A stretch of 64,000 bases of DNA from Acidovorax sp. T1 (lineage in GTDB: Bacteria; Pseudomonadota; Gammaproteobacteria; Burkholderiales; Burkholderiaceae_C), in NCBI RefSeq assembly GCF_002176815.1, contig NZ_CP021648.1, positions 3,542,001 through 3,606,000 of the forward strand, written 5' to 3'. Numbering within the stretch: the stretch's first letter is position 1; the number at the start of each line of letters is the position of its first letter. The position numbers were made by a program, and so were the translations under genes. Below are positions 51,239 to 64,000 of the stretch, one piece after another. The notes below the pieces were generated by a model. That model had not been told where the DNA came from, did no database searches, and saw nothing but the letters and a program-made list of their open reading frames with translations.

Positions 51239-51439
51239 CCGCCCCCGTTCCCCGTGAGCCATGCCCGCCATCGGCGGCGTGGCCCGTGTCCCGCATGCCC
51301 TGCGGGACGCCCCAGCGCGCAACGCCTTCTTGCTCCGTGTGCGCGTCCCGTCCGGCCGGCCCCGGCCGCGGGACCTGAAGGTGGCTTCTCCGCGAACCGC
51401 ACCCCGCGCGTTCTCCTCGTCTGCATTCCTTCCGCCGCT

Positions 51440-51491
51440 GCGAAGGGTCCCCCGATGGCTTGCCTGTGCGAGCCATCCGGAGACCCTTCGC
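51440..51491. other. Long two-stem hairpin after topB
   Basis: Outer arms GCGAAGGGTC and GACCCTTCGC pair over ten bases; a 4/4 internal loop follows, then GATGGCT pairs AGCCATC around a ten-base loop. Stability and internal symmetry suggest a structured RNA or a transcript end. It begins about 200 bases after the topB stop. Confidence 0.55.
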
Positions 51492-51676
51492 GGTCAGCGG
51501 TATTCGGTGCCGGTGCCCGCCGGCGCAAAAACGGGCTCCCTTTGTGCGCGGATGTGCGCCAGACGATGCCGGCCCCAGCCACGACATGGGCCGGGTGTGA
51601 TTGCTGGATGAGCAGACGGTTCTAGCGACGACCGGGCCTGCCAATCAGCCCACGGGTGGTTCTTCTTTCCTCCCGA

Positions 51677-51701
51677 GCCGAAGGCCCCTGGGGCCTTCGG
51701 C
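51677..51701 (+). terminator. Terminator-like hairpin
   Basis: GCCGAAGGCCC and GGGCCTTCGGC are near-adjacent perfect arms, with GCCTTTCTCC after them. It separates topB from the cargo genes. Confidence 0.6.
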
Positions 51702-51966
51702 GCCTTTCTCCTGCCTTTCAACGCCCCGGCCAGGGCGATGGCCCTGCGCCACACGAACGGGAGACCCACATGACCGCCAACATTGCAATCCGCCTCACTA
51801 CGCACCGCCGATGCACCGAACTGCAAGGCGATCGGCAATTCCATGGCCGTGCTGTGCGTCGCGTGGCTGGGGACGCCGGCTGGTGCAGTACCTGCACAAG
51901 ACGGGATCGATCGCTTCGGATTGATGCAAGACGCGGCCGGCGGGTCGCGCGATCCTCCCTCCTGCA

Positions 51967-52035
51967 TTGCCGACGCATCGGCAACAGCCAGCAGCCAGGG
52001 TGTCCAGACTGCCGTGGGTTCCGCCCACGCCACCC
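51967..52035 (+). ncRNA. Structured RNA element, copy 1 (leader of the 52168 gene)
   Basis: Helix 1 TTGCCGA-CGCA-TCGGCAA; helix 2 GCAGCC with GACTGC (one mismatch); helix 3 GTGGG-TTCCG-CCCAC; pseudoknot GGGTG in the helix 2 loop with CACCC at 52031-52035. The same plan recurs at 52868, 55870 and 58040 with different paired bases. It sits 133 bases before the ATG at 52168. Confidence 0.65.
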
Positions 52036-52167
52036 GCCAGTTCGCCCCGGCATCTCTCCGGCGAACGCTGCCCACCGGGCATCGATGCCACCTTCCTCCA
52101 ACCCACGGGATGTATGCCGCGTCCCGTCAGGGGCGTGTCGTCAACCCGGTCGATATCAGGACTTCCC

Positions 52168-52725
52168 ATGGACACCATCACCCGACAAGACCGCATCACC
52201 CTCAAGAACCTCAAGGTCGCGGATTTCGCGAGCGAGGAAACGCTGTGCTTCACCGCCACCGTCATGTTCGACGGCAGGCCCATCGCCGAAGCCCGCAACG
52301 ACGGACACGGCGGCTCGACGTTCGTGCGCGCGTTGCAAGGCCAGGCCGCGCTGCTGGCCCAGGCCGAGGAATTCGCCAAGAGCCTGCCGCCGGCATCGCT
52401 CGACGTCGAACGCGAAGACGACGAGCCGCTTCTCATCGACATGACGCTCGACTTCCTAGTGGACCAATTGGCCGATGCCATGCACGCGGAGCGCAAGCTG
52501 CGCACCGCGTTCAACCGCGACATCGGCAACAAGGTGCTGTTCATCAAGGACGGCAGGCTGCTGTTCCTCAAGGGCATCAAGCTCAAGGCCATTGCCGACC
52601 GCGCAGCGTATTTCGCAAAGCTGCGCAGCCGACAGGACCAGCCCATCGTCATCCTGGCCGAGCTGCCAGCGGACGAGGCATTCGCCATCTGGAAGCAGCA
52701 TGTCCTGGGCGACAAGCCCCGCTGA
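52168..52725 (+). CDS. ICE cargo protein of unknown function
   Basis: 185 residues, soluble. MDTITRQDRITLKNLKVADF and VMFDGRPIAEARNDGHGGS are followed by a helical middle and a C-terminal KVLFIKDGRLLFLKGIKLK with IADRAAYFAKLRSRQD. I do not recognise a domain. The ATG was chosen over the longer frame because the upstream part overlaps the RNA element. It is followed by its own terminator. Confidence 0.7.
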   Translation: MDTITRQDRITLKNLKVADFASEETLCFTATVMFDGRPIAEARNDGHGGSTFVRALQGQAALLAQAEEFAKSLPPASLDVEREDDEPLLIDMTLDFLVDQLADAMHAERKLRTAFNRDIGNKVLFIKDGRLLFLKGIKLKAIADRAAYFAKLRSRQDQPIVILAELPADEAFAIWKQHVLGDKPR

Positions 52726-52751
52726 TCCAGCCTCACCGCACCGTCATGACC

Positions 52752-52781
52752 GCCCCGCACTTGCTGCGGGGCTTTTCTTTG
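52752..52781 (+). terminator. Rho-independent terminator
   Basis: GCCCCGCA and TGCGGGGC pair over eight bases with a CTTGC loop, then TTTTCTTTG. Lies 27 bases after the stop codon at 52725. Confidence 0.8.
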
Positions 52782-52867
52782 TCTCTGCGTACATCAATCG
52801 GGGCTGGACCAGATGCCGATTTCCAACTGACGTGGCGCGCCCCCCCCACGAAGCTGCCCGCATGCTC

Positions 52868-52934
52868 GCTGATTCGTCAGCACATGCCAGCAGCCAGGGT
52901 TTCAGGCTGCCGCGGGGTTCTCCCCGCGCAACCC
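52868..52934 (+). ncRNA. Structured RNA element, copy 2 (leader of the 53059 gene)
   Basis: Helix 1 GCTGA-TTCG-TCAGC with a UUCG tetraloop; linker ACATGCCA; helix 2 GCAGCC with GGCTGC around AGGGTTTCA; helix 3 CGCGGGG-TTCT-CCCCGCG; pseudoknot GGGTT with AACCC at 52930-52934. It is the best-formed copy. The 333-base gap 52726-53058 otherwise holds only the terminator at 52752. Confidence 0.7.
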
Positions 52935-53058
52935 ACCAGTCCGCATCGCATCCATTGCGCGGACGCGCGTCGCCAAGACGCTGATGCTTTTTTTCAACCG
53001 CGTGCGGGAGCTGCCATCCCGTGAGGGACAGGGCCCCGCTTTTCCAAGGAGCCCATCC

Positions 53059-53280
53059 ATGTCCCAGCAAGCCTCTTTCGGCCGATTCGGTCAATTGGCC
53101 TTGACCTACTGCGGCAAGTTCCTGCCGCTCGAAGTCCTGCACAGCGCCGCCGGCCACTACATCGGCACGCGCGATACCGAAGGTCCCGTTTCGCGGGAAT
53201 CTCGTGAGTACTTCCGCAGCCATGCCGCGGCTCAACGTGCCCTCGAAAGAGGCGGCTGGTCCCAGCTCGCCGTTCCCTGA
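53059..53280 (+). CDS. Small ICE cargo protein
   Basis: 73 residues, beginning MSQQASFGRFGQLALTYCGK and ending in a helix SRESREYFRSHAAAQRALER. AAGGAG eight bases before the ATG supports translation. No recognised domain. It is followed 21 bases later by the next cargo gene, so these two may share a transcript. Confidence 0.65.
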   Translation: MSQQASFGRFGQLALTYCGKFLPLEVLHSAAGHYIGTRDTEGPVSRESREYFRSHAAAQRALERGGWSQLAVP

Positions 53281-53301
53281 TCCAACTGGAGGAATCACGT
53301 C

Positions 53302-53694
53302 ATGAACCAGCTACTGCCGCAGGAAGTCGTCGATCAGATCGTTCGGGAAGAACGGCATTTCAGCGCCGCGCCCCAAGCCTTTTTCGAGGCATGGAAGCGT
53401 GGTGTCGAGATCGCCGGCCCGCAATGGTTTGGCGATGGCACCCGTGAAGGTCTGAACCAGGCCAAGAGCAAGTGGGATCTGCGCCCCGACATGCTGCGCC
53501 TCAACGACGCCCTCGGCGTCCTGAGCAGCGGGGAACGCATGTTCCTGTCCGCGATGGTCAGCTTCTACAACGCGCGCGAGGGCGGTGCCATGCTCAAGCG
53601 CTGCCACTTCAACGGGTTGTCGGACTTCGACGGCCTCGATCTGCCTCGTCGCCAGGTGATCGCCGACCTCCTGCTGAACTACAGCGGTTGGTGA
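53302..53694 (+). CDS. ICE cargo protein of unknown function
   Basis: 130 residues with ribosome site TGGAGG nine bases before the ATG. MNQLLPQEVVDQIVREERHF, KSKWDLRPDMLRLNDALGVL and LSSGERMFLSAMVSFYN are amphipathic helices; the sequence has no clear catalytic motif. It is a typical small protein of PFGI-1-like elements. A long hairpin follows. Confidence 0.7.
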   Translation: MNQLLPQEVVDQIVREERHFSAAPQAFFEAWKRGVEIAGPQWFGDGTREGLNQAKSKWDLRPDMLRLNDALGVLSSGERMFLSAMVSFYNAREGGAMLKRCHFNGLSDFDGLDLPRRQVIADLLLNYSGW

Positions 53695-53739
53695 GCCGGT
53701 CCCCGGCACACCTTCATCACTGCGTTCACGCGACCCCAT

Positions 53740-53774
53740 GAGGGACATGCGCCTCGCCCGAGGCCATGTCCCTC
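53740..53774 (+). terminator. Long terminator-like hairpin
   Basis: GAGGGACATG and CATGTCCCTC pair over ten bases and GCCTCG with CGAGGC continue the stem, followed by GCGTTTCTCC. Confidence 0.6.
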
Positions 53775-53874
53775 GCGTTTCTCCCCGCCCAGTGCCATCC
53801 GGCATCAGGCGGTTCCCCTGCGGATGCCATCGTCCGCAAGGGCTGGCTCCGTTCATTCATCGAAAGGAGCCTTC

Positions 53875-54561
53875 ATGGCCAACAATTACTACGAAGCCAC
53901 CGGCGTTCTCGTGCTCGACCGTGTGACGCCCGTCATCCAGGCGCTGTTCGGCGCCTTCGCGCTGGACGAGAGCCATCCCGGCAACGGGCAGGCCTACATC
54001 GCCCAGATCGCCGAGACCACCAATCCGCAATGGCCGGACGTGCTCGATGGCCTGGAAGACCTGGCCACGCAACTCGGCATTCCGATGCCGGACGACGAAG
54101 GGCTTTCGATCCCGCCGCTGCTCGAACTGCTCGCCGTGCACTTCGGTGCCGATGAGGACGAAGAGCTGGGGAACTTGATCGAGCGTCATTCGTTCGAGGA
54201 CACCGCCGATCTCGACGCATTGTTTCTGATCGCCACCCGATTCGATGACGGCCACCACCTGACCGCCATCCAGTTCGAGGGATGCTGGTATTGCAGCAAG
54301 CCGCGGCTGTTCGAGTTCGGCGGCAACGGCTGCTACCTGAGCCGCGAGGTCCGCGTCATCAGTTCCTCCTCGCAGGCCCTCCAGCTCGGCGACCAACTGC
54401 GCAAGGCCATTGTGGCCGCCGACATCGAAGAGGCCTCGGCCCTGATTGCGCTGGAGACCATCAATCTGCTGGCGGGCGTCAGCGACGAGCCATTCCGCAT
54501 GAATTTGCGCCGACGCGTCGCCGAGCGATTGGCCCAAACGCCAACGATCAGCGTCACCTGA
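53875..54561 (+). CDS. ICE cargo protein of unknown function
   Basis: 228 residues from the ATG with AAAGGAG six bases upstream. The sequence is acidic; VLVLDRVTPVIQALFGAF, HFGADEDEELGNLIERH and TAIQFEGCWYCSKPRLFEFG are the most distinctive segments. The last matches a style of small adaptor-like or antirestriction-neighbour proteins in mobile elements, but I cannot name a family. Followed by a leader-type hairpin and the next cargo gene. Confidence 0.7.
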   Translation: MANNYYEATGVLVLDRVTPVIQALFGAFALDESHPGNGQAYIAQIAETTNPQWPDVLDGLEDLATQLGIPMPDDEGLSIPPLLELLAVHFGADEDEELGNLIERHSFEDTADLDALFLIATRFDDGHHLTAIQFEGCWYCSKPRLFEFGGNGCYLSREVRVISSSSQALQLGDQLRKAIVAADIEEASALIALETINLLAGVSDEPFRMNLRRRVAERLAQTPTISVT

Positions 54562-54582
54562 CGCTGTTTCCTTTCTTTCCAC

Positions 54583-54605
54583 CCACCGGGGTCAATTCCC
54601 GGTGG
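54583..54605 (+). promoter_or_regulatory. Leader hairpin before the 54645 gene
   Basis: CCACCGGG and CCCGGTGG pair over eight bases with a GTCAATT loop; the start codon follows 39 bases later. Similar hairpins precede most cargo genes to the right. Confidence 0.5.
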
Positions 54606-54644
54606 CGGGGATTGGCTCCATCATTATTCTGTTGGAGAAATCCC

Positions 54645-55376
54645 ATGTCCCAGAATCCCAATCCCTTTCTACGCGGCTACTGGAATCTGAAAATCGTCCG
54701 CACGCTGTCCATCAGCCACGAGGACGGAAGCCCGCATGTCTGGCGAAACATCCACCAGAGCCAAGAACACCTCTCCGATGAGGAGCTGGTTTCAGCATCC
54801 TGCATCGTCACCAGCGATTTCGCCGTAGTCAGCAATGGCCCAGACTCCGTGAGTGCCGAGGTGCTGGCCGAACGCGATGCCGGTGAAGGCGCCTACGGCG
54901 TGGTGGGTGCCGTGGTGTACGCGATCCACGGCGACGACTTCGACGGCCTCCCCGTCCACATTGGCGACACTTATTCGGCCGAGGCCGCACGGGAAGTCGT
55001 GCAGCGGTTGAGCTTCGAGACCGGCTACTACAGCCGGTGCTGGGAAATCAGCAGCGCGCACATCAGCCACGAAACCGGCCAGTACCTGGCCAACCTGGCT
55101 GACCTCGCGACGCCGGAAGCCTTTTTGTTCATTGCGTTCCGGGTTCCCTACAGCCCGGCGATCGGCGTCAAGCTGATTTCCACGCCCTGGACGGGCCAGC
55201 ACCTGCAGGACGTCGAGGAGATCTCCGCCGAGCAGCTTCGGCAGGAGCACTGCAGCAAGGGCATGCCGGACGACCTGGCACAGATCCTTGCACTGGCCGG
55301 CCAGGCCGATGTGCGCATCCTCATTCTCGATGCCGACGCACCCGTGTTGCCGGGCCTGCCGTTGGCCGGCGAATAA
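54645..55376 (+). CDS. ICE cargo protein of unknown function
   Basis: 243 residues; GGAGAAA six bases before the ATG. SRCWEISSAHISHETGQYLA and IGVKLISTPWTGQHLQDVEE stand in the middle; ILILDADAPVLPGLPL ends the protein. I recall the SSAHISxET segment from uncharacterised mobile-element proteins (possibly the DUF5983 type) but am not certain. No signal or membrane segment. Confidence 0.7.
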   Translation: MSQNPNPFLRGYWNLKIVRTLSISHEDGSPHVWRNIHQSQEHLSDEELVSASCIVTSDFAVVSNGPDSVSAEVLAERDAGEGAYGVVGAVVYAIHGDDFDGLPVHIGDTYSAEAAREVVQRLSFETGYYSRCWEISSAHISHETGQYLANLADLATPEAFLFIAFRVPYSPAIGVKLISTPWTGQHLQDVEEISAEQLRQEHCSKGMPDDLAQILALAGQADVRILILDADAPVLPGLPLAGE

Positions 55377-55417
55377 CTGCCAGACACATCCCCAGCCTAC
55401 CTTTTCCTCACCGCATG

Positions 55418-55449
55418 CCGGCCCGTCTCCCGCCAGGGAGCCGGGCCGG
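55418..55449 (+). promoter_or_regulatory. Leader hairpin before the 55473 gene
   Basis: CCGGCCCG with CGGGCCGG, continued inside by CTCCC with GGGAG; followed by TTCACTTTCAT and AGGAG before the ATG. Confidence 0.5.
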
Positions 55450-55472
55450 TTCACTTTCATAGGAGCGATCCC

Positions 55473-55751
55473 ATGTTCCCCGATCTCATCTCGCCCGTAT
55501 CGGACTTCGAGCACCAGCTTGGAGCCTGCTTCAATGCCATGAGCCAGGACGATGCCATCGGCCAGATCCTGGTAGTCGAGCGCATGAGCGGCATGCTGCA
55601 CATGCGCCATATCGCCAGCGCCGACCTGATGGACACCGACGTGGACGACTACGAAATGGTCATCTTCGACGGTGGCAACACAAGCGGGGACACGTGGAAG
55701 CACGTGTTCTTTCCGCGTCAGCGCGAGCACTACTTCGTGTACCAAGCCTGA
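55473..55751 (+). CDS. Small acidic ICE cargo protein
   Basis: 92 residues, AGGAG eight bases before the ATG. SADLMDTDVDDYEMVIFDGG is strongly acidic; RQREHYFVYQA closes it. The negative charge resembles DNA-mimic anti-restriction proteins, which is speculation. Followed by a clear terminator. Confidence 0.65.
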   Translation: MFPDLISPVSDFEHQLGACFNAMSQDDAIGQILVVERMSGMLHMRHIASADLMDTDVDDYEMVIFDGGNTSGDTWKHVFFPRQREHYFVYQA

Positions 55752-55759
55752 CCCCTCCG

Positions 55760-55781
55760 GCCCCTTTCGAGGGGCTTTTTC
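55760..55781 (+). terminator. Rho-independent terminator with UUCG loop
   Basis: GCCCCT-TTCG-AGGGGC followed by TTTTTC, nine bases after the stop codon at 55751. Confidence 0.85.
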
Positions 55782-55869
55782 TTGTACGCAGCACAGGAAT
55801 GCGGGCATGTTGCGGTGCCGTTTCCTGCGGGCAGGCCGACCACCCCGGGGCCATGCTTACCCCATGTCC

Positions 55870-55940
55870 GTCGGCGCTGCCGACACATGCCCAGGCAGTC
55901 GAGACCTTCGAGGCTGCAAGCACGGGAAACCGTGCTGGTC
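55870..55940 (+). ncRNA. Structured RNA element, copy 3 (leader of the 56040 gene)
   Basis: Helix 1 GTCGGC-GCT-GCCGAC; linker ACATGCCCAG; helix 2 GCAGTC with GGCTGC (one G-U pair) around GAGACCTTCGA; helix 3 GCACGG-GAAA-CCGTGC with a GNRA loop; pseudoknot GACC (55903) with GGTC (55937). CCATGCTTACCCCATG upstream is shared with copy 4. Confidence 0.65.
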
Positions 55941-55981
55941 GTTTCTTCCTACGGACCTACCGCGTCCATCCACGCCACCCA

Positions 55982-56017
55982 CAAGGGACCTCTCCCTTGC
56001 GGGCGGGGAATCCCTTG
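55982..56017 (+). promoter_or_regulatory. Leader hairpin with two alternative partners
   Basis: CAAGGGA (55982-55988) can pair with TCCCTTG at 55993-55999 or with an identical TCCCTTG at 56011-56017. The AAGGAG ribosome site follows at about 56027. Confidence 0.45.
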
Positions 56018-56039
56018 TTATTTCTCAAGGAGTTTCCCC

Positions 56040-56864
56040 ATGGACCGTTCCCTCATCAAATCCATGATGCCTTCGCTGGTCGCAGGCCATGTGCCCCGTA
56101 ACGTGCGATCGTTCAAGTACCGCGTGTTCGATGATCAGCCGCTGTCCTCAACGCTGGGCTTTGCCATCGACCCCCAACCCTTCGACGGCAAGGTGGTCGC
56201 TGCGACCGACGATGCCATCGTCGTCAAGCTCAAGCCTTCCGAGTTCGCGGTGCTCGATCCCAGCCTGGTGACCACGGTTCCTGCCGAAGGCGCCAAGGTG
56301 CATGTCCAACCCTATGCCCGTCGTCGCTTCGACGGACTGCGCGCGGACACGCCGGAGGTCATCACCGAGAAGACTTCGGACGGCACGCCGTACACCATCA
56401 CGAGGCACATCCTCGGCTCGGCGCCGGCCAAGCTGCCCATTCCCACGCCGCAGTGCATGGAGTTGGGCCAGCTCATCGAGCAGTTGGAAGAGATGCCGGC
56501 CCCCGATCGCTTCCGGCGCATCACCCACATGCTGGTGGATGCCGGTGCCCGCGACTTCACCTGGGTCGATCCCACGCCCTCCAAGATCATCGAGACCCCG
56601 CCGGCGATCAGCTTCACGGTCTCGACCGCGAAGTTCGAGGGCCGGGTGACGATCCTCTACGACCGCGGCGGAGACACCTACGTGGTGGAACTGCACCGTC
56701 AGAACGGTGAATCGGTCGAACTGGTCGATCGGCACGACGAGGTGTATTTCGACATGCTCGGCGAAGTGCTGGAGCGGCTCATCGACGACGGGCGCTGGCG
56801 CCAGATCGACGTGAGCATCCTCGACGCGAAGGCGGCCCGTAAGCGCCAAGCCGTCCCGGCATGA
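56040..56864 (+). CDS. ICE cargo protein of unknown function
   Basis: 274 residues, CAAGGAG nine bases upstream of the ATG. MDRSLIKSMMPSLVAGHVPR; AATDDAIVVKLKPSEFAVLD; a central RRFDGLRADTPEVITEKTSD; C-terminal VTILYDRGGDTYVVELHRQN and VLERLIDDGRWRQIDVSIL. No named domain is recognised. It occurs in the same slot in other elements of the class, as I recall. A strong terminator follows. Confidence 0.7.
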   Translation: MDRSLIKSMMPSLVAGHVPRNVRSFKYRVFDDQPLSSTLGFAIDPQPFDGKVVAATDDAIVVKLKPSEFAVLDPSLVTTVPAEGAKVHVQPYARRRFDGLRADTPEVITEKTSDGTPYTITRHILGSAPAKLPIPTPQCMELGQLIEQLEEMPAPDRFRRITHMLVDAGARDFTWVDPTPSKIIETPPAISFTVSTAKFEGRVTILYDRGGDTYVVELHRQNGESVELVDRHDEVYFDMLGEVLERLIDDGRWRQIDVSILDAKAARKRQAVPA

Positions 56865-56927
56865 CGCCCCTCGGCTGACCCGAGGCACCCGCCACGGCGT
56901 TCCAGCCATTCCGGCCGCGTGACCTAC

Positions 56928-56969
56928 AGGCCCTTCATCCCATCGGGTGGAGGGCCTTTCTCTTTTTTT
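56928..56969 (+). terminator. Rho-independent terminator
   Basis: AGGCCCT and AGGGCCT arms with inner pairing around CATCCCATCGGGTG, then TTCTCTTTTTTT. It stands only 20 bases before the next start codon, so it may also act as an attenuator for that gene. Confidence 0.82.
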
Positions 56970-56988
56970 AACACAGGAGATTTCATCC

Positions 56989-57342
56989 ATGTCACTGCGA
57001 TTCAAAGGCGCCGACCTGCGCCCCGTGCTGACCGAAGCCATCGCCAATCAGTGCCGCATCGTCCTGGTCAAGGACCAGGGCGTGTACTTCCTCGCCGAGC
57101 GTGGGGAGCGTCGCCCGGATGGACGCCAGCAACTGCTCGCCTACGCCGTCGGCTGCAACCCGGACACCGACCCGTTCGATGACTGGTGGCACCTCGCCGG
57201 CCGCGAGCTGGGTGGCGACGATTTTGCGGAGTATTTCGACCCGAAGGACGGCCTGTTCACGCGCCTCCTGCACTCGGCGGACGATCTCGTGCTGTCCGCC
57301 ACCGCCACGCACCTGTCCTTGGCCGTGGTGCCTCCCGCCTGA
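56989..57342 (+). CDS. DUF3085-type ICE protein
   Basis: 117 residues, CAGGAGA eight bases before the ATG. CRIVLVKDQGVYFLAERGER, LLAYAVGCNPDTDPFDDWW and ELGGDDFAEYFDP are the family pattern as I recall it. Members are small proteins of plasmids and ICEs without known activity. It is enclosed by terminators on both sides, so it should be a single-gene transcript. Confidence 0.72.
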   Translation: MSLRFKGADLRPVLTEAIANQCRIVLVKDQGVYFLAERGERRPDGRQQLLAYAVGCNPDTDPFDDWWHLAGRELGGDDFAEYFDPKDGLFTRLLHSADDLVLSATATHLSLAVVPPA

Positions 57343-57368
57343 AGCGGCAACCGCCGCGCAGCCCTCGC

Positions 57369-57395
57369 AGCCCCCGCACCGGGGGCTTTCTTTTG
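57369..57395 (+). terminator. Rho-independent terminator
   Basis: AGCCCCCG-CAC-CGGGGGCT followed by TTCTTTTG, 27 bases after the stop codon at 57342. Confidence 0.85.
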
Positions 57396-57492
57396 TTCGC
57401 ACCGCGGCCATCGCCGCGCATGCGCGTTCGTCTCCAGCCGCCAAGGCACGCCCCGCGGGCCACAGCGCCGGCATGCCACCGGAGACGACCGC

Positions 57493-58029
57493 ATGAACAC
57501 ATCATCGACCTCGCCGAGGCTGCACCTGCTGCCGGTGTCGCTGCGCACGGCCAACGTCTTCGTGCTGGCACACCATCACCGTCCGGTCCAGGCTGCGAAG
57601 TTCGCCCTGGCCGTCACGCTGGTCGACAGCGACCTGATCCGCGGCGTGGCCATCGTCGGCCGGCCGGTCGCGCGGCACCTGGACGATGGCTGGACGCGGG
57701 AAGTCACACGGCTGTGCACCGACAGCACACCCAACGCCTGCAGCAAGCTATACGGCGCGGCCTGGCAGGCGGCAAAGTCGCTGGGCTACATCCGCCTGAT
57801 CACCTACACCTTACCCGACGAAGGCGGCGCCAGCCCGCGCGCCGCCGGCTGGCGGCTGATTGGCGCGCGCGGCGGCGGCGCCTGGAGCCGTCCCAGCCGC
57901 CCCCTCGCCGATACCCCGAGCACCTGCGCCGCCCCAAATGCCTGTGGCAGGCGCCGGGCGGCGCGGACAAAGGGAAGCACCCGGATGCCGATTGATTGCT
58001 GCCGCGCGCGCGAGGCCCGGCCATGCTGA
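57493..58029 (+). CDS. XF1762-family GNAT-like protein, C terminus possibly frameshifted
   Basis: 178 residues as read. LHLLPVSLRTANVFVLAHHH, VAIVGRPVARHLDDGWTREV and TRLCTDSTPNACSKLYGAAW are the XF1762 signature, an acetyltransferase-like family of mobile elements. After SRPSRP the frame continues into ADTPSTCAAPNACG, while the +1-shifted frame gives YPEHLRRPKCLWQAPGG, the kind of PK-x-LW ending the family has. A one-base change in the run of five C near 57900 would restore it, ending at 57995. Either a real frameshift or a sequence error. Confidence 0.75.
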   Translation: MNTSSTSPRLHLLPVSLRTANVFVLAHHHRPVQAAKFALAVTLVDSDLIRGVAIVGRPVARHLDDGWTREVTRLCTDSTPNACSKLYGAAWQAAKSLGYIRLITYTLPDEGGASPRAAGWRLIGARGGGAWSRPSRPLADTPSTCAAPNACGRRRAARTKGSTRMPIDCCRAREARPC

Positions 58030-58039
58030 CCCCATGCCT

Positions 58040-58113
58040 GCTGACGTTGTCAGCGACATGCCAGGCAACCATCGGTCTTCGAGGTTGCGGCGCAGTTCCC
58101 ACTGCGTGACCGA
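58040..58113 (+). ncRNA. Structured RNA element, copy 4 (leader of the DUF3577 gene)
   Basis: Helix 1 GCTGAC-GTT-GTCAGC; linker GACATGCCAG; helix 2 GCAACC with GGTTGC around ATCGGTCTTCGA; helix 3 CGCAGT-TCCC-ACTGCG; pseudoknot TCGGTC (58072) with GACCGA (58108). Preceded by CCATGCTGACCCCATG as in copy 3. A fourth hairpin GCCACCAG-CCT-CTGGTGGC lies downstream near 58144. Confidence 0.7.
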
Positions 58114-58182
58114 GCCAGCTCGCACCGCATCCATCCGCGAGCGGCCACCAGCCTCTGGTGGCGGATGCTTTCGCCTTATCAA

Positions 58183-58220
58183 CCCACCGCGGGGTTACGC
58201 ACCTTCCCCGCATGCGTGGG
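58183..58220 (+). promoter_or_regulatory. Two-tier leader hairpin before the DUF3577 gene
   Basis: CCCAC with GTGGG outside and GCGGGG with CCCCGC inside, loop TTACGCACCTT. The ATG is 38 bases further. Confidence 0.5.
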
Positions 58221-58257
58221 CCGGTGTGTCTCCGCTTCATCCCAATGGAGATTCACC

Positions 58258-59163
58258 ATGAACACCACGTCCAACGAGAAATCGTATTTCGACCTCCACA
58301 CCTCGGGCATCGGCTACGTCCAGCGTGTCCGTGAAGTGCCCGTCCGGGGCGGCCGCCGTGCGCAGCCTTTCCTTGCTTGCACCATCGCCGCGCTGGTCGG
58401 CCCCGCCCGGGACCCCAGCTACCGCTACTTCGACGTCAAGGTCTCGGGTGCCGAGGCCAAGAAGCTCGTTCAGCGCTACATCGGCGTTGACGATCCCAAG
58501 CAGCGCCCGCTGGTGCGATTTCGCCTCGGTGACCTGTGGGGCGATGCGTACATCCGCGACAAGGGTGAGCAGAAGGGTCAGGCCGCCGCGTCCCTCAAGG
58601 CGCGACTGCTCAAGGCCGAACTGATCGACCGGGCCGAACTGGCTTCGATCGAGCAGCACGAGCTGATCACCCGCGGCATCGGCTATCTCAATCGTGTGAA
58701 GGACGTCACCCCAAAGGCTGGCGACTCGTTCCTCTCTTGCACCGTCGCAGCACTGGCCGGGCCTGTCGATGAACCGGAGTATCGGTACTTCGACACCATC
58801 GTCGCCACCCCGGAAGCCGAGCATCTGGTTCGCCGGTGCGTTCAGGCCATCGAGGGTGACCGCAAGGTGCTGATCGCCTTCCGTCTGAACGACATGAAGA
58901 TCGATCCGTACATCCGCACCAAGGGCGAGCACGCCGGGGAACCGGCCGCAAGCCTGGAATCGACGCTGGTCCACATCGGTCTGATCAAGATCGACGGCAC
59001 CCAGGTCTATCCGACGAGCCAGGCGCAACCCGAGGCGCCGCCGGCCGAAGACGCATCCGCGTCCGAAGCCGACGACGCCATCGACACGGCCACCGAGCCC
59101 GCCGAGCGCGAGCCCGAGGCGCAAGTCGAGGAGCAGGAGCCGGCATTGGCTGCTTCGTTCTGA
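58258..59163 (+). CDS. STY4534-family ICE replication protein with two DUF3577 repeats
   Basis: 301 residues; TGGAGA eight bases before the ATG. Two tandem copies of one domain are visible: residues about 12-120 (TSGIGYVQRVREVPVR to LLKAELIDR) and 133-240 (TRGIGYLNRVKDVTPK to LVHIGLIKID), each with YRYFD, an RFRL/AFRL strand and Y-IR-KGE. The last 55 residues are acidic and low complexity. Members are named replication proteins in this ICE class; their biochemical role is not established to my knowledge. Confidence 0.85.
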   Translation: MNTTSNEKSYFDLHTSGIGYVQRVREVPVRGGRRAQPFLACTIAALVGPARDPSYRYFDVKVSGAEAKKLVQRYIGVDDPKQRPLVRFRLGDLWGDAYIRDKGEQKGQAAASLKARLLKAELIDRAELASIEQHELITRGIGYLNRVKDVTPKAGDSFLSCTVAALAGPVDEPEYRYFDTIVATPEAEHLVRRCVQAIEGDRKVLIAFRLNDMKIDPYIRTKGEHAGEPAASLESTLVHIGLIKIDGTQVYPTSQAQPEAPPAEDASASEADDAIDTATEPAEREPEAQVEEQEPALAASF

Positions 59164-59171
59164 TACGGCAT

Positions 59172-59187
59172 GGCCCCTCACGGGGCC
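59172..59187 (+). terminator. Weak terminator-like hairpin
   Basis: GGCCCC-TCAC-GGGGCC, nine bases after the DUF3577 stop, tail TTGTCGCTTCTC. Confidence 0.5.
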
Positions 59188-59307
59188 TTGTCGCTTCTCT
59201 TCCCGCATCCGCCGCGTCCCCATGACGCGCGCTTGCGCATTTCATCCCCCGAGTTCCGCGTGGTCTCACCGCCGCGCGGTTACCGCATTTCTCAAAGGAG
59301 ATCAGCC

Positions 59308-60135
59308 ATGTCTCTGGCATCCCGTTTTGCTCCGCAATCCCCGATCCTGCGCTCCGATCGTCCACTCTCGGACGACCGCATTCGTGCCGTCGTTCCGTCG
59401 ATCTTCGCCGACGCTCCGCATGGGAGCCGGTCCGATCGGTATGCCTACATACCGACCTCGACCGTGCTGACCAAGCTGCGCCAGGAGGGCTTCGAGCCCT
59501 TCATGGTGTGCCAGACACGCGTGCGCAACGAAGACCGGCGCGAGTACACGAAGCACCTCATCCGACTTCGCCATGCGAGCCAGATCAACGGCGACGAGGC
59601 GAACGAGATCATCCTGCTCAACAGCCACGACGGCACGAGCAGCTATCAGATGCTCGCCGGCATGTTCCGGTTCGTCTGCCACAACGGCCTGGTTTGCGGT
59701 GACACCACCGCCGACATCCGCGTTCCCCACAAGGGCGACGTGGCCAGCCAGGTGATCGAAGGTGCCTACGGAGTCCTCGAAGGCTTCGAGCGCGTGCAGA
59801 ACGCGCGCGATGCGATGCGCACCATCACCCTCGATGAGGGCGAAGCGGAGGTCTTTGCAAACTCCGCGCTCGCACTCAAGTACGACGATCCAGCCAAGTC
59901 CACGCCTGTCACGGAGAGCCAACTGCTGGCACCCCGGCGATGGGACGACCGCAAGAACGACTTGTGGGCCGTCTTCAACCGCGTCCAGGAGAACCTCGTC
60001 AAAGGGGGCCTGAACGGACGCACGGCCAACGGCCGCAATCAGCGCACCCGTCCGGTGCAAGGCATCGACCAGAACCTGCGCCTGAACCGGGCGTTGTGGC
60101 TGCTGGCCGAAGGCATGCGCCAGCTCAAGGCGTGA
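59308..60135 (+). CDS. DUF932 protein (phage/plasmid-like)
   Basis: 275 residues; AAAGGAG nine bases before the ATG. RSDRYAYIPTSTVLTKLRQE, RHLIRLRH-type strand KHLIRLRHASQINGDEANEI, NSHDGTSSYQMLAGMFRFVC and HNGLVCGDT are the DUF932 core. DUF932 proteins are widespread on plasmids, phages and ICEs and of unknown function. LNRALWLLAEGMRQL ends it. Confidence 0.88.
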   Translation: MSLASRFAPQSPILRSDRPLSDDRIRAVVPSIFADAPHGSRSDRYAYIPTSTVLTKLRQEGFEPFMVCQTRVRNEDRREYTKHLIRLRHASQINGDEANEIILLNSHDGTSSYQMLAGMFRFVCHNGLVCGDTTADIRVPHKGDVASQVIEGAYGVLEGFERVQNARDAMRTITLDEGEAEVFANSALALKYDDPAKSTPVTESQLLAPRRWDDRKNDLWAVFNRVQENLVKGGLNGRTANGRNQRTRPVQGIDQNLRLNRALWLLAEGMRQLKA

Positions 60136-60146
60136 TGCCACGCGGA

Positions 60147-60167
60147 CCTCGCCCACCTCGGGCGAGG
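60147..60167 (+). terminator. Terminator-like hairpin
   Basis: CCTCGCCC-ACCTC-GGGCGAGG, tail CCATTTCCTCTC, 12 bases after the DUF932 stop. Confidence 0.6.
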
Positions 60168-60185
60168 CCATTTCCTCTCATCCAC

Positions 60186-60205
60186 CGGGTGCCGTCGGCG
60201 GCCCG
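60186..60205 (+). promoter_or_regulatory. Leader hairpin before the DUF3275 gene
   Basis: CGGG with CCCG outside and GCCG-T-CGGC inside; CAGGAG and the ATG follow within 25 bases. Confidence 0.4.
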
Positions 60206-60229
60206 TCATTCATCATCAGGAGAACCATC

Positions 60230-60919
60230 ATGGCAACCCCATCGGCTTCCGAGAAATCGGTTGCGCCCATCGTCGTCCCCGGCCAGCTCACGCTGCGTAC
60301 CATCCGCGGCAAGAACGGCCCGTTCACGGTTGGCCGCCTCGCCACGCACCTCGGTACTTTCGAGGTCAAAGACCCGGAGCTGGAGCAGTACCCCGAAGGC
60401 AAGTACGACGGGGAATTCATCATCAGGTACATCTTCCCGAAGTCCTATCCGGTCGGCGGCGGCATGCGGTTCGAGATCCGTGCCAGCCTCGACGGCATGA
60501 CGCTCAACGGCATCGACAAACTCAGCCGCGACGAAGCCCGCAGCTTCGCCACCCAGGACGTCGATCCGCTCGATGAAGAGCAAGGGGCGCAGCCTGCGAC
60601 AACGCCGGCCAAGCCGACCAAAGCGTCCAGGCCCGCCAAGCCCGCACCCGTGCAGGCGTCCGCGGACCCGATGGTCGATACCACGCCCTTTGGCGTGGAT
60701 GCGCCGCCACCTGCTGAGGCTGCTGCCCCCGGCAGCACCCAAGACGGTGACCCCGCGCTCTTCGGCCTGCTGTGGCCGCTGGGCGAGTCCGTGAAACTGG
60801 ATTCGACCATCGACCGCCGCGCTTTGCGTGCACAGATCGCCCGCCTGGGCGAGCTGGGCTACGCGCTGGACTTCAAGACGCAGGAGTGGAGCCGCCAGGC
60901 CGAACTGCAACCTGCGTGA
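60230..60919 (+). CDS. DUF3275-family ICE protein
   Basis: 229 residues. ITVPGQ-type start IVVPGQLTLRTIRGKNGPF, VGRLATHLGTFEVKDPELEQ, EGKYDGEFIIRYIFPKSYP and GGGMRFEIRASLDGM are the N-terminal conserved region; residues about 118-175 are a P/A/T-rich linker; the C-terminal end (LFGLLWPLGESVKLDSTIDR) is a second conserved part. An OB-like single-stranded DNA role has been suggested by its shape to me, but that is guesswork. CAGGAG lies eight bases before the ATG. Confidence 0.8.
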   Translation: MATPSASEKSVAPIVVPGQLTLRTIRGKNGPFTVGRLATHLGTFEVKDPELEQYPEGKYDGEFIIRYIFPKSYPVGGGMRFEIRASLDGMTLNGIDKLSRDEARSFATQDVDPLDEEQGAQPATTPAKPTKASRPAKPAPVQASADPMVDTTPFGVDAPPPAEAAAPGSTQDGDPALFGLLWPLGESVKLDSTIDRRALRAQIARLGELGYALDFKTQEWSRQAELQPA

Positions 60920-60953
60920 TCGTAGACGCCGCATGCGCGGTGTTCTTCATCCA

Positions 60954-60980
60954 CCCGCCGGGGTTCCTTCCCCATGCGGG
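60954..60980 (+). promoter_or_regulatory. Two-tier leader hairpin before the 61014 gene
   Basis: CCCGC with GCGGG outside, GGGG-TTCCTT-CCCC inside. The ATG is 34 bases downstream, after GGAGG. Confidence 0.5.
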
Positions 60981-61013
60981 GGAGGCCCTGGCCATCTTCT
61001 GGAGGTCTTCATC

Positions 61014-61352
61014 ATGTCCACCATCGCTTGCGATATCCCCCGCTCCGCGCTGGATGAACCCGCGTGGCGGGCTCTCTGCGAGACGGCAGCCGCACAAGCC
61101 ACCAAGGGTTGCGGACTGTCTCACGACTACTACGTCGAACGCTTCAGTTCGGCGATCGACGCGCAACTCGGTCGATTGCCGGAAGAACAGCGCGCACAGG
61201 CGCTGAAGATCGCACAGGAATGGGACTACGCAACACCGGCCGAACGGCAGGAAACCCAGGACTGGAATGCGGAGCATGGCTATTGCTCGCATGGGATCGA
61301 GTTCGGCTGCTGTCCGGCCGGTTGTGATCGCGACGATGACGACTGGGACTAA
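61014..61352 (+). CDS. Small ICE protein with a cysteine-rich acidic tail
   Basis: 112 residues; TGGAGG eight bases before the ATG. The C terminus GYCSHGIEFGCCPAGCDRDD with DDWD has four cysteines, a possible small zinc site followed by an acidic end. The N-terminal part is helical. Not recognised beyond its occurrence in such elements. Confidence 0.65.
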   Translation: MSTIACDIPRSALDEPAWRALCETAAAQATKGCGLSHDYYVERFSSAIDAQLGRLPEEQRAQALKIAQEWDYATPAERQETQDWNAEHGYCSHGIEFGCCPAGCDRDDDDWD

Positions 61353-61398
61353 GGGTAAGGCATAGGTTTTCCTTCGCTGCACCTGCGGCATTCCATCA

Positions 61399-61423
61399 CC
61401 CACTGGGGGTTCTTCCCCACGGG
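61399..61423 (+). promoter_or_regulatory. Leader hairpin before the 61459 gene
   Basis: CCC with GGG outside and GGGG-TTCTT-CCCC inside. A second short hairpin around GGCCTCC and GGAGGCC at 61426-61455 overlaps the ribosome site GAGGAGG, so it could hide it. Confidence 0.5.
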
Positions 61424-61458
61424 GAGGCCTCCAGCTCAACTTTTCGAGGAGGCCTCTC

Positions 61459-61866
61459 ATGGGCTGGTATTTCTCTCCCCAATCGCGGTCTGAACTGATC
61501 GCGGAACTGATCGCACCACAGCAGACCGAGCGCGTCAGCGCGAAGGTTATCGCTCACGCATTGCGCGGCAACGTGCTGTGGTCAGTGGTCGAACTGACCG
61601 CCAAGGTCGAAGGTGTGCATCGTGATCTCGCGCCGGGCCAGTCCTTGCGCTACATCCGCTGCGATCTGCTGGAACGCAGCGGCAACCAGTGGGGCTACAA
61701 GCCGTTGGAAGAGTCCATGCACCCGTACTACTACTCGTGCCCGCTGTCCTATCTGGACCTCGCACCGGAGCAGTCCGCCGACTGGCGTGCAGGCGTTCGC
61801 GCCTACCACGCACGGCGGCGCACACCCACGGCTGTCACGGCTCCCGCCGCGACGCTGATGGCCTGA
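61459..61866 (+). CDS. ICE cargo protein, probably DUF6927
   Basis: 135 residues. MGWYFSPQSRSELIAELIAP, HALRGNVLWSVVELTAKVEG, YIRCDLLERSGNQWGYKPLE and ESMHPYYYSCPLSYLDLAP are a distinctive pattern that I associate with DUF6927. Aromatic-rich and soluble. GAGGAGG before the start codon lies in a possible hairpin. The next gene starts 16 bases later, so the two are probably co-transcribed. Confidence 0.7.
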   Translation: MGWYFSPQSRSELIAELIAPQQTERVSAKVIAHALRGNVLWSVVELTAKVEGVHRDLAPGQSLRYIRCDLLERSGNQWGYKPLEESMHPYYYSCPLSYLDLAPEQSADWRAGVRAYHARRRTPTAVTAPAATLMA

Positions 61867-61882
61867 GCCAGGAGGAACCAAC

Positions 61883-62143
61883 ATGGACCCGATCCTGGCT
61901 GCGCTCTCACCCTCGCTGCTGGCACTCGTTGAAGGAAGTTTGTCCAACGACGAAGTGTCCTCCGACGAGGAGATGCTGGAGTACTTCATCAGCAACGGCC
62001 TCACCGAGGAACAGGCACGGCAGGCACTGACCTACCGCGACCAGTACCTCAACAACATCTACCTGGACGGCTTCACGCCGATCACCGCGGTGGACGAGGC
62101 GCTTCACTTCAACCCGCACACCCGGCAGTTCGAGCCGGACTGA
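61883..62143 (+). CDS. Small acidic ICE protein
   Basis: 86 residues; AGGAGGAACC seven bases before the ATG. SLSNDEVSSDEEMLEYFISN, GLTEEQARQALTYRDQYLNN. Predicted helical and acidic. Paired with the gene before it. No domain recognised. Confidence 0.65.
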   Translation: MDPILAALSPSLLALVEGSLSNDEVSSDEEMLEYFISNGLTEEQARQALTYRDQYLNNIYLDGFTPITAVDEALHFNPHTRQFEPD

Positions 62144-62161
62144 GCGATTTTCTTCCACCCC

Positions 62162-62182
62162 CTGGGGCAGTACTTGCCCCAG
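62162..62182 (+). promoter_or_regulatory. Leader hairpin before the 62220 gene
   Basis: CTGGGGCA-GTACT-TGCCCCAG, eight base pairs, 38 bases before the ATG; CCACCCC and GGGCGG flank it as at other cargo leaders. Confidence 0.5.
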
Positions 62183-62219
62183 CGGGCGGTGCTGTTCCCG
62201 TTAATCCGAGGACACCACC

Positions 62220-62870
62220 ATGCTCGCAAACACTTCTTCCACCACGCTGTACCGCATCGACGAATGCCCGGACGTGATGGCCGACGCTTGCGTCGGCGAT
62301 GACCAGGGCAACCTGATCTTCCTGTCCATCTGGGCGCGCGACACCGCCGTCCAGCAGTTCCTGGCTCGCCTGACCCTCGGGCGCGACGAGCAGGGACTGG
62401 ACCAGTTCCACATCATCACCGACCAGGGCGGCAGCGTCCCGGTGTTCATCGGCAACGTCGATCGCCTGGAAAAGCGCGTCACGCGCGCCTATCGGCGAAC
62501 GCTGTTCGGTTCGCTGTCCAACGTGTGGCTGTTCGACCGCCGCTGCGTCAAGCCCGACAAGGCCAACGCCAGCGCACTGGCACTGCTGCCGCGCGACAGC
62601 GCCCACCGGCTCGACCGCCTGTGGATGCTGGTGCGGGACACCTGCCCATTGCCGCTGCTCGACCACTGGCGCGAGACCGTGCTGGAACTGCTGCAAAGCC
62701 GCGAGATGCTGGCCCGCCTTCCGTTCGCCCTCGGGCCGCTGGAAGGCCATCGGCTAGCCATCGACGTGCCGGCGCTGACCTTGGCGCTGGGTTCGCTGAT
62801 CCGCAGTGATGTGCTCACCGCCTATCCATACCCGGCCAAGATCTGGACGCCGGAAGTGGTAGCGGCCTGA
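62220..62870 (+). CDS. ICE cargo protein of unknown function
   Basis: 216 residues. VGDDQGNLIFLSIWARDTAV, ITDQGGSVPVFIGNVDRLEK and YRRTLFGSLSNVWLFDRRCV look like a conserved beta-rich first half; the second half (LWMLVRDTCPLPLLDHWRET) is helical. I do not recognise the family. Start supported by CCGAGGA nine bases upstream. Confidence 0.68.
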   Translation: MLANTSSTTLYRIDECPDVMADACVGDDQGNLIFLSIWARDTAVQQFLARLTLGRDEQGLDQFHIITDQGGSVPVFIGNVDRLEKRVTRAYRRTLFGSLSNVWLFDRRCVKPDKANASALALLPRDSAHRLDRLWMLVRDTCPLPLLDHWRETVLELLQSREMLARLPFALGPLEGHRLAIDVPALTLALGSLIRSDVLTAYPYPAKIWTPEVVAA

Positions 62871-62877
62871 CCCACCC

Positions 62878-62905
62878 ACGGAGGCACGCCTTGGCGTGCT
62901 TCCGT
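62878..62905 (+). terminator. Strong hairpin between two cargo genes
   Basis: ACGGAGGCACGCC and GGCGTGCTTCCGT pair over thirteen bases with a two-base gap (one G-U pair), then GTTTCC. Terminator or leader hairpin for the next gene. Confidence 0.6.
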
Positions 62906-62934
62906 GTTTCCTCCCCGCCAACCAGGAGACTTCC

Positions 62935-64000
62935 ATGGCCCTCATGTTCCCGCGGCTCGCCCGCAATTTCGCTAAGAACGGTTACTACCCGACTGACGAA
63001 CCCACGCTCGAAAGAGCCCTCAACGCACTGATGCCCAGCGACGGGCCCATGTGCATCCTCGATCCCTGCGCCGGCGAAGGCGTGGCGATCGCCGAAGCCG
63101 CCCATGCCCTCGGGCGCGAGCAGGCCAAGGCGTTCGCGGTCGAGTTCGACGCGGAGCGGGCACGCCATGCCCGCGGCCTGGTCGATCACTGCCTGCACGC
63201 GGACCTGATGGACACGATGGTCTCCAAGCAGTCGTTCGGGCTGCTCTGGCTCAACCCGCCGTATGGCGACTTGTCCAAGGACGTCAACGGCAACATCGGC
63301 TATCAGGGCCAGGGCCGTGCCCGCCTCGAAAAGCTGTTCTATCAGCGTTCGCTGTCGCTGTTGCAGTACGGCGGCGTGCTGGTCTTCATCGTCCCCGCCT
63401 ACGTGCTCGATGCGGAGCTGGTCGGCTGGCTGACACGCCACTACACGGACCTGCGCATCTACCGAGCGGTGGAGACGCAGTTCAAGCAGGTGGTGATCTT
63501 CGGCCGAAGGGTGCGACAGCGTGAACAGGCTCCCGATGGCGTCAAGGCCGTGCGCAATCTGCTGCTGCAGGTTGGGCTTGGCGAAGTCGAAGCCGAGGAG
63601 CTGCCGAGCGATTGGCCGTTCCTGCCGTACATCGTCCCCGCCAGTCCGGCCGAGCCGGAGCATTTCTTCCGCGTGACGATGGAGCCGGAGCAGTTCGCCG
63701 ATGAAGTCGGCCGGCTGCAAGGCCTCTGGCCGTCGCTGGACACGCACCTGGGGGCCGCGCAGCAGTCGCTGCGTCCGCCGGCGCGTGCCTTGTCCCACTG
63801 GCATCTCGCCCTGGCTCTGGCCGCGGGTGCGATCTCGGGGGTTGTGCGCTCCAAGACCGGGCGCGTGCTCGTCGTCAAGGGTGACACCCACAAGGACAAG
63901 ACGCTCCAGCGGGAATTCACCGAACGCGACGACGGCTCCATCGCCGAGACCCGCATCCTCACCGACAAGTTCGTGCCCGTCATCCGCGCGTGGGACATGA
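62935..64000 (+). CDS. DUF6094 protein with methyltransferase motifs (runs off the right edge)
   Basis: 355 codons are visible. ILDPCAGEGVAIAEAAHALG is an AdoMet-binding motif I and LLWLNPPYGDLSKDVNGNIG holds NPPY, motif IV of N6-adenine DNA methyltransferases; KAFAVEFDAERARHAR is the acidic motif II. The gene belongs to the DUF6094 group seen in PFGI-1-type ICEs, where a helicase gene often follows. It could methylate the element's DNA to avoid host restriction, which is inference. CAGGAGA six bases before the ATG. Confidence 0.82.
   Translation, partial: MALMFPRLARNFAKNGYYPTDEPTLERALNALMPSDGPMCILDPCAGEGVAIAEAAHALGREQAKAFAVEFDAERARHARGLVDHCLHADLMDTMVSKQSFGLLWLNPPYGDLSKDVNGNIGYQGQGRARLEKLFYQRSLSLLQYGGVLVFIVPAYVLDAELVGWLTRHYTDLRIYRAVETQFKQVVIFGRRVRQREQAPDGVKAVRNLLLQVGLGEVEAEELPSDWPFLPYIVPASPAEPEHFFRVTMEPEQFADEVGRLQGLWPSLDTHLGAAQQSLRPPARALSHWHLALALAAGAISGVVRSKTGRVLVVKGDTHKDKTLQREFTERDDGSIAETRILTDKFVPVIRAWDM

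Follow-up and report, generated by a model that had tools for sequence, protein, structure and literature searches.

The 64,000-nt stretch of Acidovorax sp. T1 DNA analysed here (the window; contig NZ_CP021648.1, positions 3,542,001 to 3,606,000 of the forward strand) carries four copies of a structured RNA with a covarying pseudoknot, which almost certainly belong to the radC RNA family (Rfam RF01754) and very probably act in cis as leaders. That they head several units of the type found in ICEclc, an integrative and conjugative element (ICE), and control the translation of its transfer-competence genes is a reading to which, on sequence evidence, we would give even chances. An initial annotation had placed four elements of a common plan at 51967-52035, 52868-52934, 55870-55940 and 58040-58113; all are found there again, with every arm proposed for hairpin 1, hairpin 3 and the pseudoknot in place. 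The linker is ACATGCC in copies 2-4, copy 1 having ACAGCC instead, and hairpin 2 of the common plan (P2) is imperfect in copy 1. The use of a structured, pseudoknotted RNA as a leader is supported. The annotation correctly and carefully described members of an RNA family that was already known; added here are a fuller fold, the position of a promoter in a subset of relatives, and a link to ICEclc transcripts.

In an Rfam scan of the window, copies 2 (52851-52987), 3 (55853-56004) and 4 (58023-58168) match RF01754 at 94.5, 106.5 and 124.8 bits (gathering threshold 40 bits), covering the whole model (1-149) with E values from 1.4e-16 to 1.9e-23. Copy 1 (51967-52089), the leader of the gene at 52168, goes unreported by Rfam even at E≤1; its orthologues score 70.7 bits in a second ICE of the same genome and 69.8 bits in the ICEclc leader, to which it is 87% identical across 218 nt. 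Because these counterparts match RF01754, copy 1 is, by its sequence, a diverged member of the family. The comparison with Rfam removes the novelty that the annotation had attached to the RNA, and a new family is ruled out. The element also exceeds the bounds first drawn, with 149 positions in Rfam and 187-235 nt up to the start codon. The family goes back to Weinberg et al. (2010, PMC2864571), who published it as a candidate structured RNA; literature searches for radC RNA or motif, for RF01754, for radC with structured RNA and ICEs, and for Rfam with genomic island returned no functional study.

The fold was derived from 200 RNA sequences, reduced to 97 representatives of less than 90% identity; an anchor pattern excluded 7 of the 29 loci L366-L394. 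A sequence rule set aside 14 representatives as having module A only (copy 3 and 13 others), leaving 83, of which 78 form the covariation alignment, five short-class or poorly aligned rows being dropped. The radC plan consists of P1, module A (P2, P3 and pseudoknot PK1) and module B (P4, P5 and pseudoknot PK2), that is, of tandem pseudoknots in which the loop of P2 (PK1) or P4 (PK2) pairs with the strand immediately 3' of P3 or P5; nearly invariant letters are also present. Over 46 pairs in 78 sequences, 89.2% of cells are paired, against 24-44% in slid-partner controls, and 451 cells are changed on both sides, against 129 after shuffling. Pairing is indeed kept by compensatory change, as originally claimed: two-sided change occurs in 40 of the 46 pairs, and none of 500 shuffles matches any observed measure (a count that is not a probability). 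By helix, paired cells amount to 98% in P4, 83-93% in PK1 and 83% in PK2. Few pairs pass a more demanding, R-scape-like test that preserves the tree; the lowest E values fall in P4, P2 and P1 in the wider set and in P1 in one subset, with one PK1 pair at E 0.02 in another and P3 at 0.087.

PK2 needs separate treatment: its helix score is at least 5 in 77 of 83 sequences, but shuffled loops reach this value in 50%, so that the evidence for it lies in its fixed position and its compensatory variants (GCATCC/GGATGC, GCTTCCG/TGGAAGC, GCTTCTG/TAGAAGC, GCACTC/GAGTGC and others). Two-sided changes occur in four of the six pairs of this eighth helix across the 78 sequences, counts that are lowered by the outermost pairs, which have a gap in 26 of 78 rows and are seemingly out of register in about as many.

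All copies in the window lie on the plus strand. Copy 1 forms P1 (51967-51973/51978-51984), PK1 (51998-52002/52031-52035), P4 (52040-52045/52061-52066) and PK2 (52049-52054/52084-52089). Copy 2 forms P1 (52868-52872/52877-52881), P2 (52890-52895/52905-52910), P3 (52911-52917/52922-52928), PK1 (52897-52901/52930-52934), P4 (52939-52944/52959-52964) and PK2 (52948-52952/52983-52987). Copy 3, of the short class with the first module only, has P1 (55870-55875/55879-55884), P2 (55894-55900/55912-55917), PK1 (55901-55906/55937-55940) and P3 (55920-55925/55930-55935). In copy 4 we find P1 (58040-58045/58049-58054), PK1 (58073-58077/58108-58112), P4 (58118-58123/58137-58142), PK2 (58127-58132/58163-58168) and P5 (58145-58151/58155-58161).

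P1, P2, P3 and P5 are the same in the structure line of RF01754; P4 is absent from it, its 3' arm being paired there with the last bases of the model, and three further helices described below (P6, PK3 and P7) lie 3' of the model's end. Covariance models cannot represent pseudoknots; since the structure line cannot carry them, we claim no novelty for PK1 and PK2 over the drawings of Rfam or of the original authors. radC is named among families with covariation beyond the structure stored in the database (PMC7657543).

A ribosome-binding site and start codon follow within 170 nt behind 92 of the 97 representatives by a crude start finder, and behind 85 by a stricter one that requires GGAG. Of the two roles proposed in the initial annotation, cis-regulator or ICE-encoded small RNA, this supports use as a leader and makes a free small RNA less likely, the elements being presumably transcribed. 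Part of the leaders carry a third module, in which the loop of P6 pairs with the strand behind P6 to form PK3 (29% of 75 leaders have a helix score of 5 or higher, compared with 10% when swapped). Closer to the gene, P7 pairs the Shine-Dalgarno (SD) sequence with an upstream anti-SD strand: 43 of 85 leaders have CTCC ahead of the SD, where 26 would be expected, and in 31 of these 43 flanking pairs extend it by at least 2, against 28% when swapped. A first test with the crude start finder had been weaker (helix score of at least 6 in 29% of 92, against 12% swapped). In the class of copy 3 another hairpin covers the SD (CCTTG/CAAGG or TTCCG/CGGAG; CCTTG with CAAGG in copy 3 itself, at 56012-56032). 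In copy 4 the third module and the ribosome-binding-site helix occupy 58189-58252, with P6 at 58189-58194/58206-58211, PK3 at 58197-58203/58223-58229, and the anti-SD strand of P7 at 58228-58233 facing the SD at 58247-58252; the 3' strand of PK3 and the anti-SD thus overlap by 58228-58229.

Because the SD helix covaries, with support in about half of the leaders, and adjoins PK3, control of translation is favoured, and translation initiation as the main control point falls only a little short of an even chance. In this mechanism the default fold would hide the ribosome-binding site; since the 3' strand of PK3 abuts or overlaps the anti-SD strand, the SD would become exposed once the upstream modules fold, or once a ribosome or factor binds them. 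All RNA-headed units could in this way be translated together in the transfer-competence programme.

In a subset of relatives, transcription of a new unit probably begins with the RNA, at +1 or close to it, because a promoter-like sequence ends at its first bases and terminators lie upstream. A perfect TTGACA occurs at -36 to -17 in 16 of 97 representatives and in none in a control stretch (-100 to -81); with at least 5 of 6 letters the counts are 27 and 7. It lies 17-19 nt from the best -10-like hexamer, which falls on the RNA's first bases, and NANNNT occupies -1 to +4 of the Rfam model in 59 of the 97, whereas each of ten other registers yields 0-5 matches. Strong terminators in sense orientation precede the RNA within 230 nt in 24 of 97, with none in antisense (33 against 5 by loose criteria). 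For the window copies promoter matches are weak: copy 2 has CTGACG, 17 nt and GAAGCT at the RNA's 5' edge (52827-52855), a candidate suggested by the strong promoters that relatives have. Terminator-like hairpins of the intrinsic type stand upstream of copy 2 (52752-52780) and copy 3 (55759-55782). A U-tract attenuator as a general rule is ruled out, a terminator-like hairpin lying within the RNA in only 12 of 97 (3 by strict criteria); T-runs behind PK2 were judged by eye only.

The genome of the window has nine RF01754 matches in two elements. A fifth copy of the window's element lies 36 kb downstream of the others, outside the window and directly before a gene with a RadC domain, which scores just under the curated NCBIfam cut-offs; the second ICE holds five more. 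No promoter was recognised for copy 5. The genes downstream of radC RNAs are described as coding for DNA-related proteins, including radC, integrase and methyltransferase genes; here the RadC-domain gene stands behind copy 5, integrase genes lie near one further locus (L411), and 8 of 10 tested window genes have no NCBIfam match. The element is, from its gene content, of the ICEclc/PAGI-2 type because of its neighbour genes (ParA-like, ICE ParB, STY4528, PFL_4669, SSB, topoisomerase and STY4534/DUF3577). The initial annotation had called the genes behind the RNAs cargo; a role as cargo leaders is ruled out, these genes being orthologues of the ICEclc core region at 75-93% protein identity. They are a 185-aa gene behind copy 1 (52168-52725; orthologue ICEclc 88949-89500), a 73-aa gene behind copy 2 (53059-53280; ORF88400), a 274-aa gene behind copy 3 (56040-56864; ORF84835) and, behind copy 4, a DUF3577 / STY4534-family ICE protein (58258-59163; ORF81655), all on the plus strand. 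Directly 5' of copy 1, at 51807-51872, lies a remnant whose 22 aligned residues are 86% identical to the terminal part of ICEclc ORF89746, which Pfam makes a C5-cytosine methylase.

The search of ICEclc proposed in the annotation located five radC RNAs. One genome (G941) was identified as carrying ICEclc because the 3' ends of its open reading frames reproduce the published numbers, 14 of 36 at one offset and 11 of 36 at an offset 16 bases away. The RNAs precede the gene at 89500 (region of ORF89247), ORF88400, ORF84835, ORF81655 and ORF58432, and four of the five stand before the first gene of a transcript mapped in Table 1 of Gaillard 2010 (PMC2892462). Sulser 2022 (PMC9286271) describes the promoters of ORF88400 and ORF81655 as bistable and that of ORF58432 as weak or doubtful; for ORF84835 and ORF89247 it gives a rise in read coverage, with cloned fragments lacking subpopulation expression, the former at background and the latter above background in all cells. 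The word radC is absent from the main texts of both papers. The published 27-bp promoter motif of ICEclc could not be recovered here. These five copies sit at transcript starts of a laboratory model ICE for which the published work gave no full explanation, which makes the function of the family testable, and the fuller fold, with its tandem pseudoknots, its ribosome-binding-site helix and, in a subset, a promoter at the 5' edge, tells which bases to mutate.

Several observations weigh against leaders that act on translation. Internal terminators hint at transcriptional control. The crude finder detects no start codon behind five of the 97 representatives, and at L411 and L417, which are among the five, the next sizeable gene is about 490-550 nt off; CTCC is absent from 42 of 85 leaders, and in the window P7 is weak for copies 1 and 2. 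Copy 5 is not a 5' terminus, because it overlaps the end of the upstream gene and the ICEclc RNA-seq has no read depletion at the equivalent site. In the tree-preserving test the wider set brings PK1 no lower than E 0.1, and all PK2 pairs stay above 0.2; PK1 taken alone has more A-C (16) than G-U (14) cells.

Among the genomes sampled, radC RNA is present in 2 of 369 from the class as a whole, 9 of 150 and 23 of 399 from the family, 1 of 7 from another family, and 91 of 298 Pseudomonadaceae. Pattern scans of genome and viral contigs gave many unrelated phyla among the matches listed, and the pattern was judged too loose; 16 loci from the genome scan were examined further, and 2 of the 16 genomes carry radC RNA. 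Copy 4 as query gave no match in the phage collection. Of 33 clusters (112-hit table), 28 hold at least two copies, all on the same strand in 28 of 28. DUF3577 accompanies the RNA in 30 of the 34 Pseudomonadaceae genomes that have this domain; it occurs without radC RNA in the other four, in seven genomes of the class sample and at one locus of the window's genome, the third DUF3577 locus there (L444, G000:C1:1603001-1615000). At least two genomes (G799 and G802) have the RNA without DUF3577. On a replicon of the alphaproteobacterium Tistrella mobilis, NC_017958.1 68623-68768 and 37272-37422 are 97-98% identical to copies 4 and 5 of the window's element, which suggests a recent spread to that class. 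At L411:5424-6046 and L417:4805-5502 (minus strand), radC RNA lies near an integrase or DUF3987 gene, and the stretch of about 490-550 nt without obvious gene shows, by eye, a strong hairpin (GCCCGTCTC...GAGACGGGC) and a conserved second block that CCTCAC/GTGAGG closes; it has no further Rfam match at gathering and is possibly another structured RNA.

Among other explanations, processive antitermination survives best, though we consider it unlikely: the nascent radC RNA would modify RNA polymerase in the manner of put, EAR, conAn or canT, and the polymerase would then read through intrinsic terminators in the unit that the RNA heads. In a survey of co-directional gene pairs with gaps of at most 170 nt (crude gene finder), terminator-like hairpins occur in 90 of 240 pairs from 44 RNA-bearing regions, against 6 of 56 from 12 DUF3577 loci without RNA and 11 of 206 from the chromosome; the 3.0- and 2.6-kb transcripts mapped in ICEclc (PMC2892462) cross pairs bearing such hairpins. 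Once redundancy is removed the excess shrinks: the 18 regions left give 22 of 84 pairs, compared with 6 of 56 (Fisher 0.03, per-element test 0.09). With strict criteria the counts become 6 of 84, 1 of 56 (Fisher 0.24) and, in the chromosome, 6 of 206. The strong terminators just 5' of 24 of 97 RNAs are the ordinary end of the preceding unit. Within 51240-64000 of the window, 12 of 12 terminator-like sites lie on the plus strand, that of the RNA (7.4 expected on both strands); one of them, a hairpin with T-run between co-directional genes (56928-56967), adjoins the SD of the gene at 56989.

Less probable again is a role in mRNA processing or stability, in which the pseudoknotted leader would protect the downstream mRNA or mark a cleavage site. 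It would fit the coverage rise without subpopulation expression at ORF84835 and ORF89247, for which the authors suspect processing or incomplete fragments, and ORF81655, where coverage is highest with a reporter similar to Pint and the authors propose post-transcriptional regulation (PMC9286271); an abrupt array change near 86,000 (PMC2892462) also coincides with the radC RNA at 85681-85832. Against it, the ORF89247 fragment is above background in the whole population (PMC9286271), and a subset of copies seemingly has its own promoter at the 5' edge. ORF73676 of ICEclc has a similar coverage rise without subpopulation expression (PMC9286271), yet no radC RNA was found there.

A switch, in which every copy would be recognised by a metabolite or by a single protein that the element encodes, seems improbable: the multiple copies per cluster, the nearly invariant letters and the co-occurrence with DUF3577 speak for it, but DUF3577 and the RNA each occur without the other. 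A single-stranded DNA element of the transferred strand, a leading-region promoter or initiation site, is very improbable, for while the common strand of clustered copies and the mobile-element context would suit it, and strand sense by itself is still compatible with it, there is an excess of G-U over A-C cells on the mRNA strand (85 against 40 in P1, P2, P3, P4 and PK1, five of the eight helices; 153 against 85 over all eight), a subset of copies follows an ordinary promoter, and helix P7 is tied to the SD.

The radC RNAs could be part of a wider scheme, which we put forward tentatively: a riboregulon, in which one factor, encoded by the element or the host, would act through every copy to turn on the late core of ICEclc-type elements at the level of translation or elongation. 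If so, it would add a post-transcriptional layer above the known bistable promoters, and could account for the mismatch between coverage and reporter at ORF81655, ORF84835 and ORF89247.

Several known systems resemble radC RNA in part. STAXI (RF01728; Weinberg et al., 2010) likewise has tandem pseudoknots close to DNA-processing genes; it has no match at gathering in the window, and a search found it in 0 of 185 genomes, in which the controls matched nowhere either. The put (HK022), EAR, conAn (pLS20) and canT (Tn916) RNAs are likened to radC by description and not by sequence: they head mobile-element or long operons with internal terminators, as radC RNA may do, and radC differs in having several copies per element. 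Similar in layout is the standby site of the tisB mRNA (PMC7708055), with a pseudoknot at the 5' end and a sequestered ribosome-binding site about 100 nt downstream; the gene is unrelated, the pseudoknot single, and the standby of ribosome and S1 a feature of tisB, to which radC is likened by layout alone.

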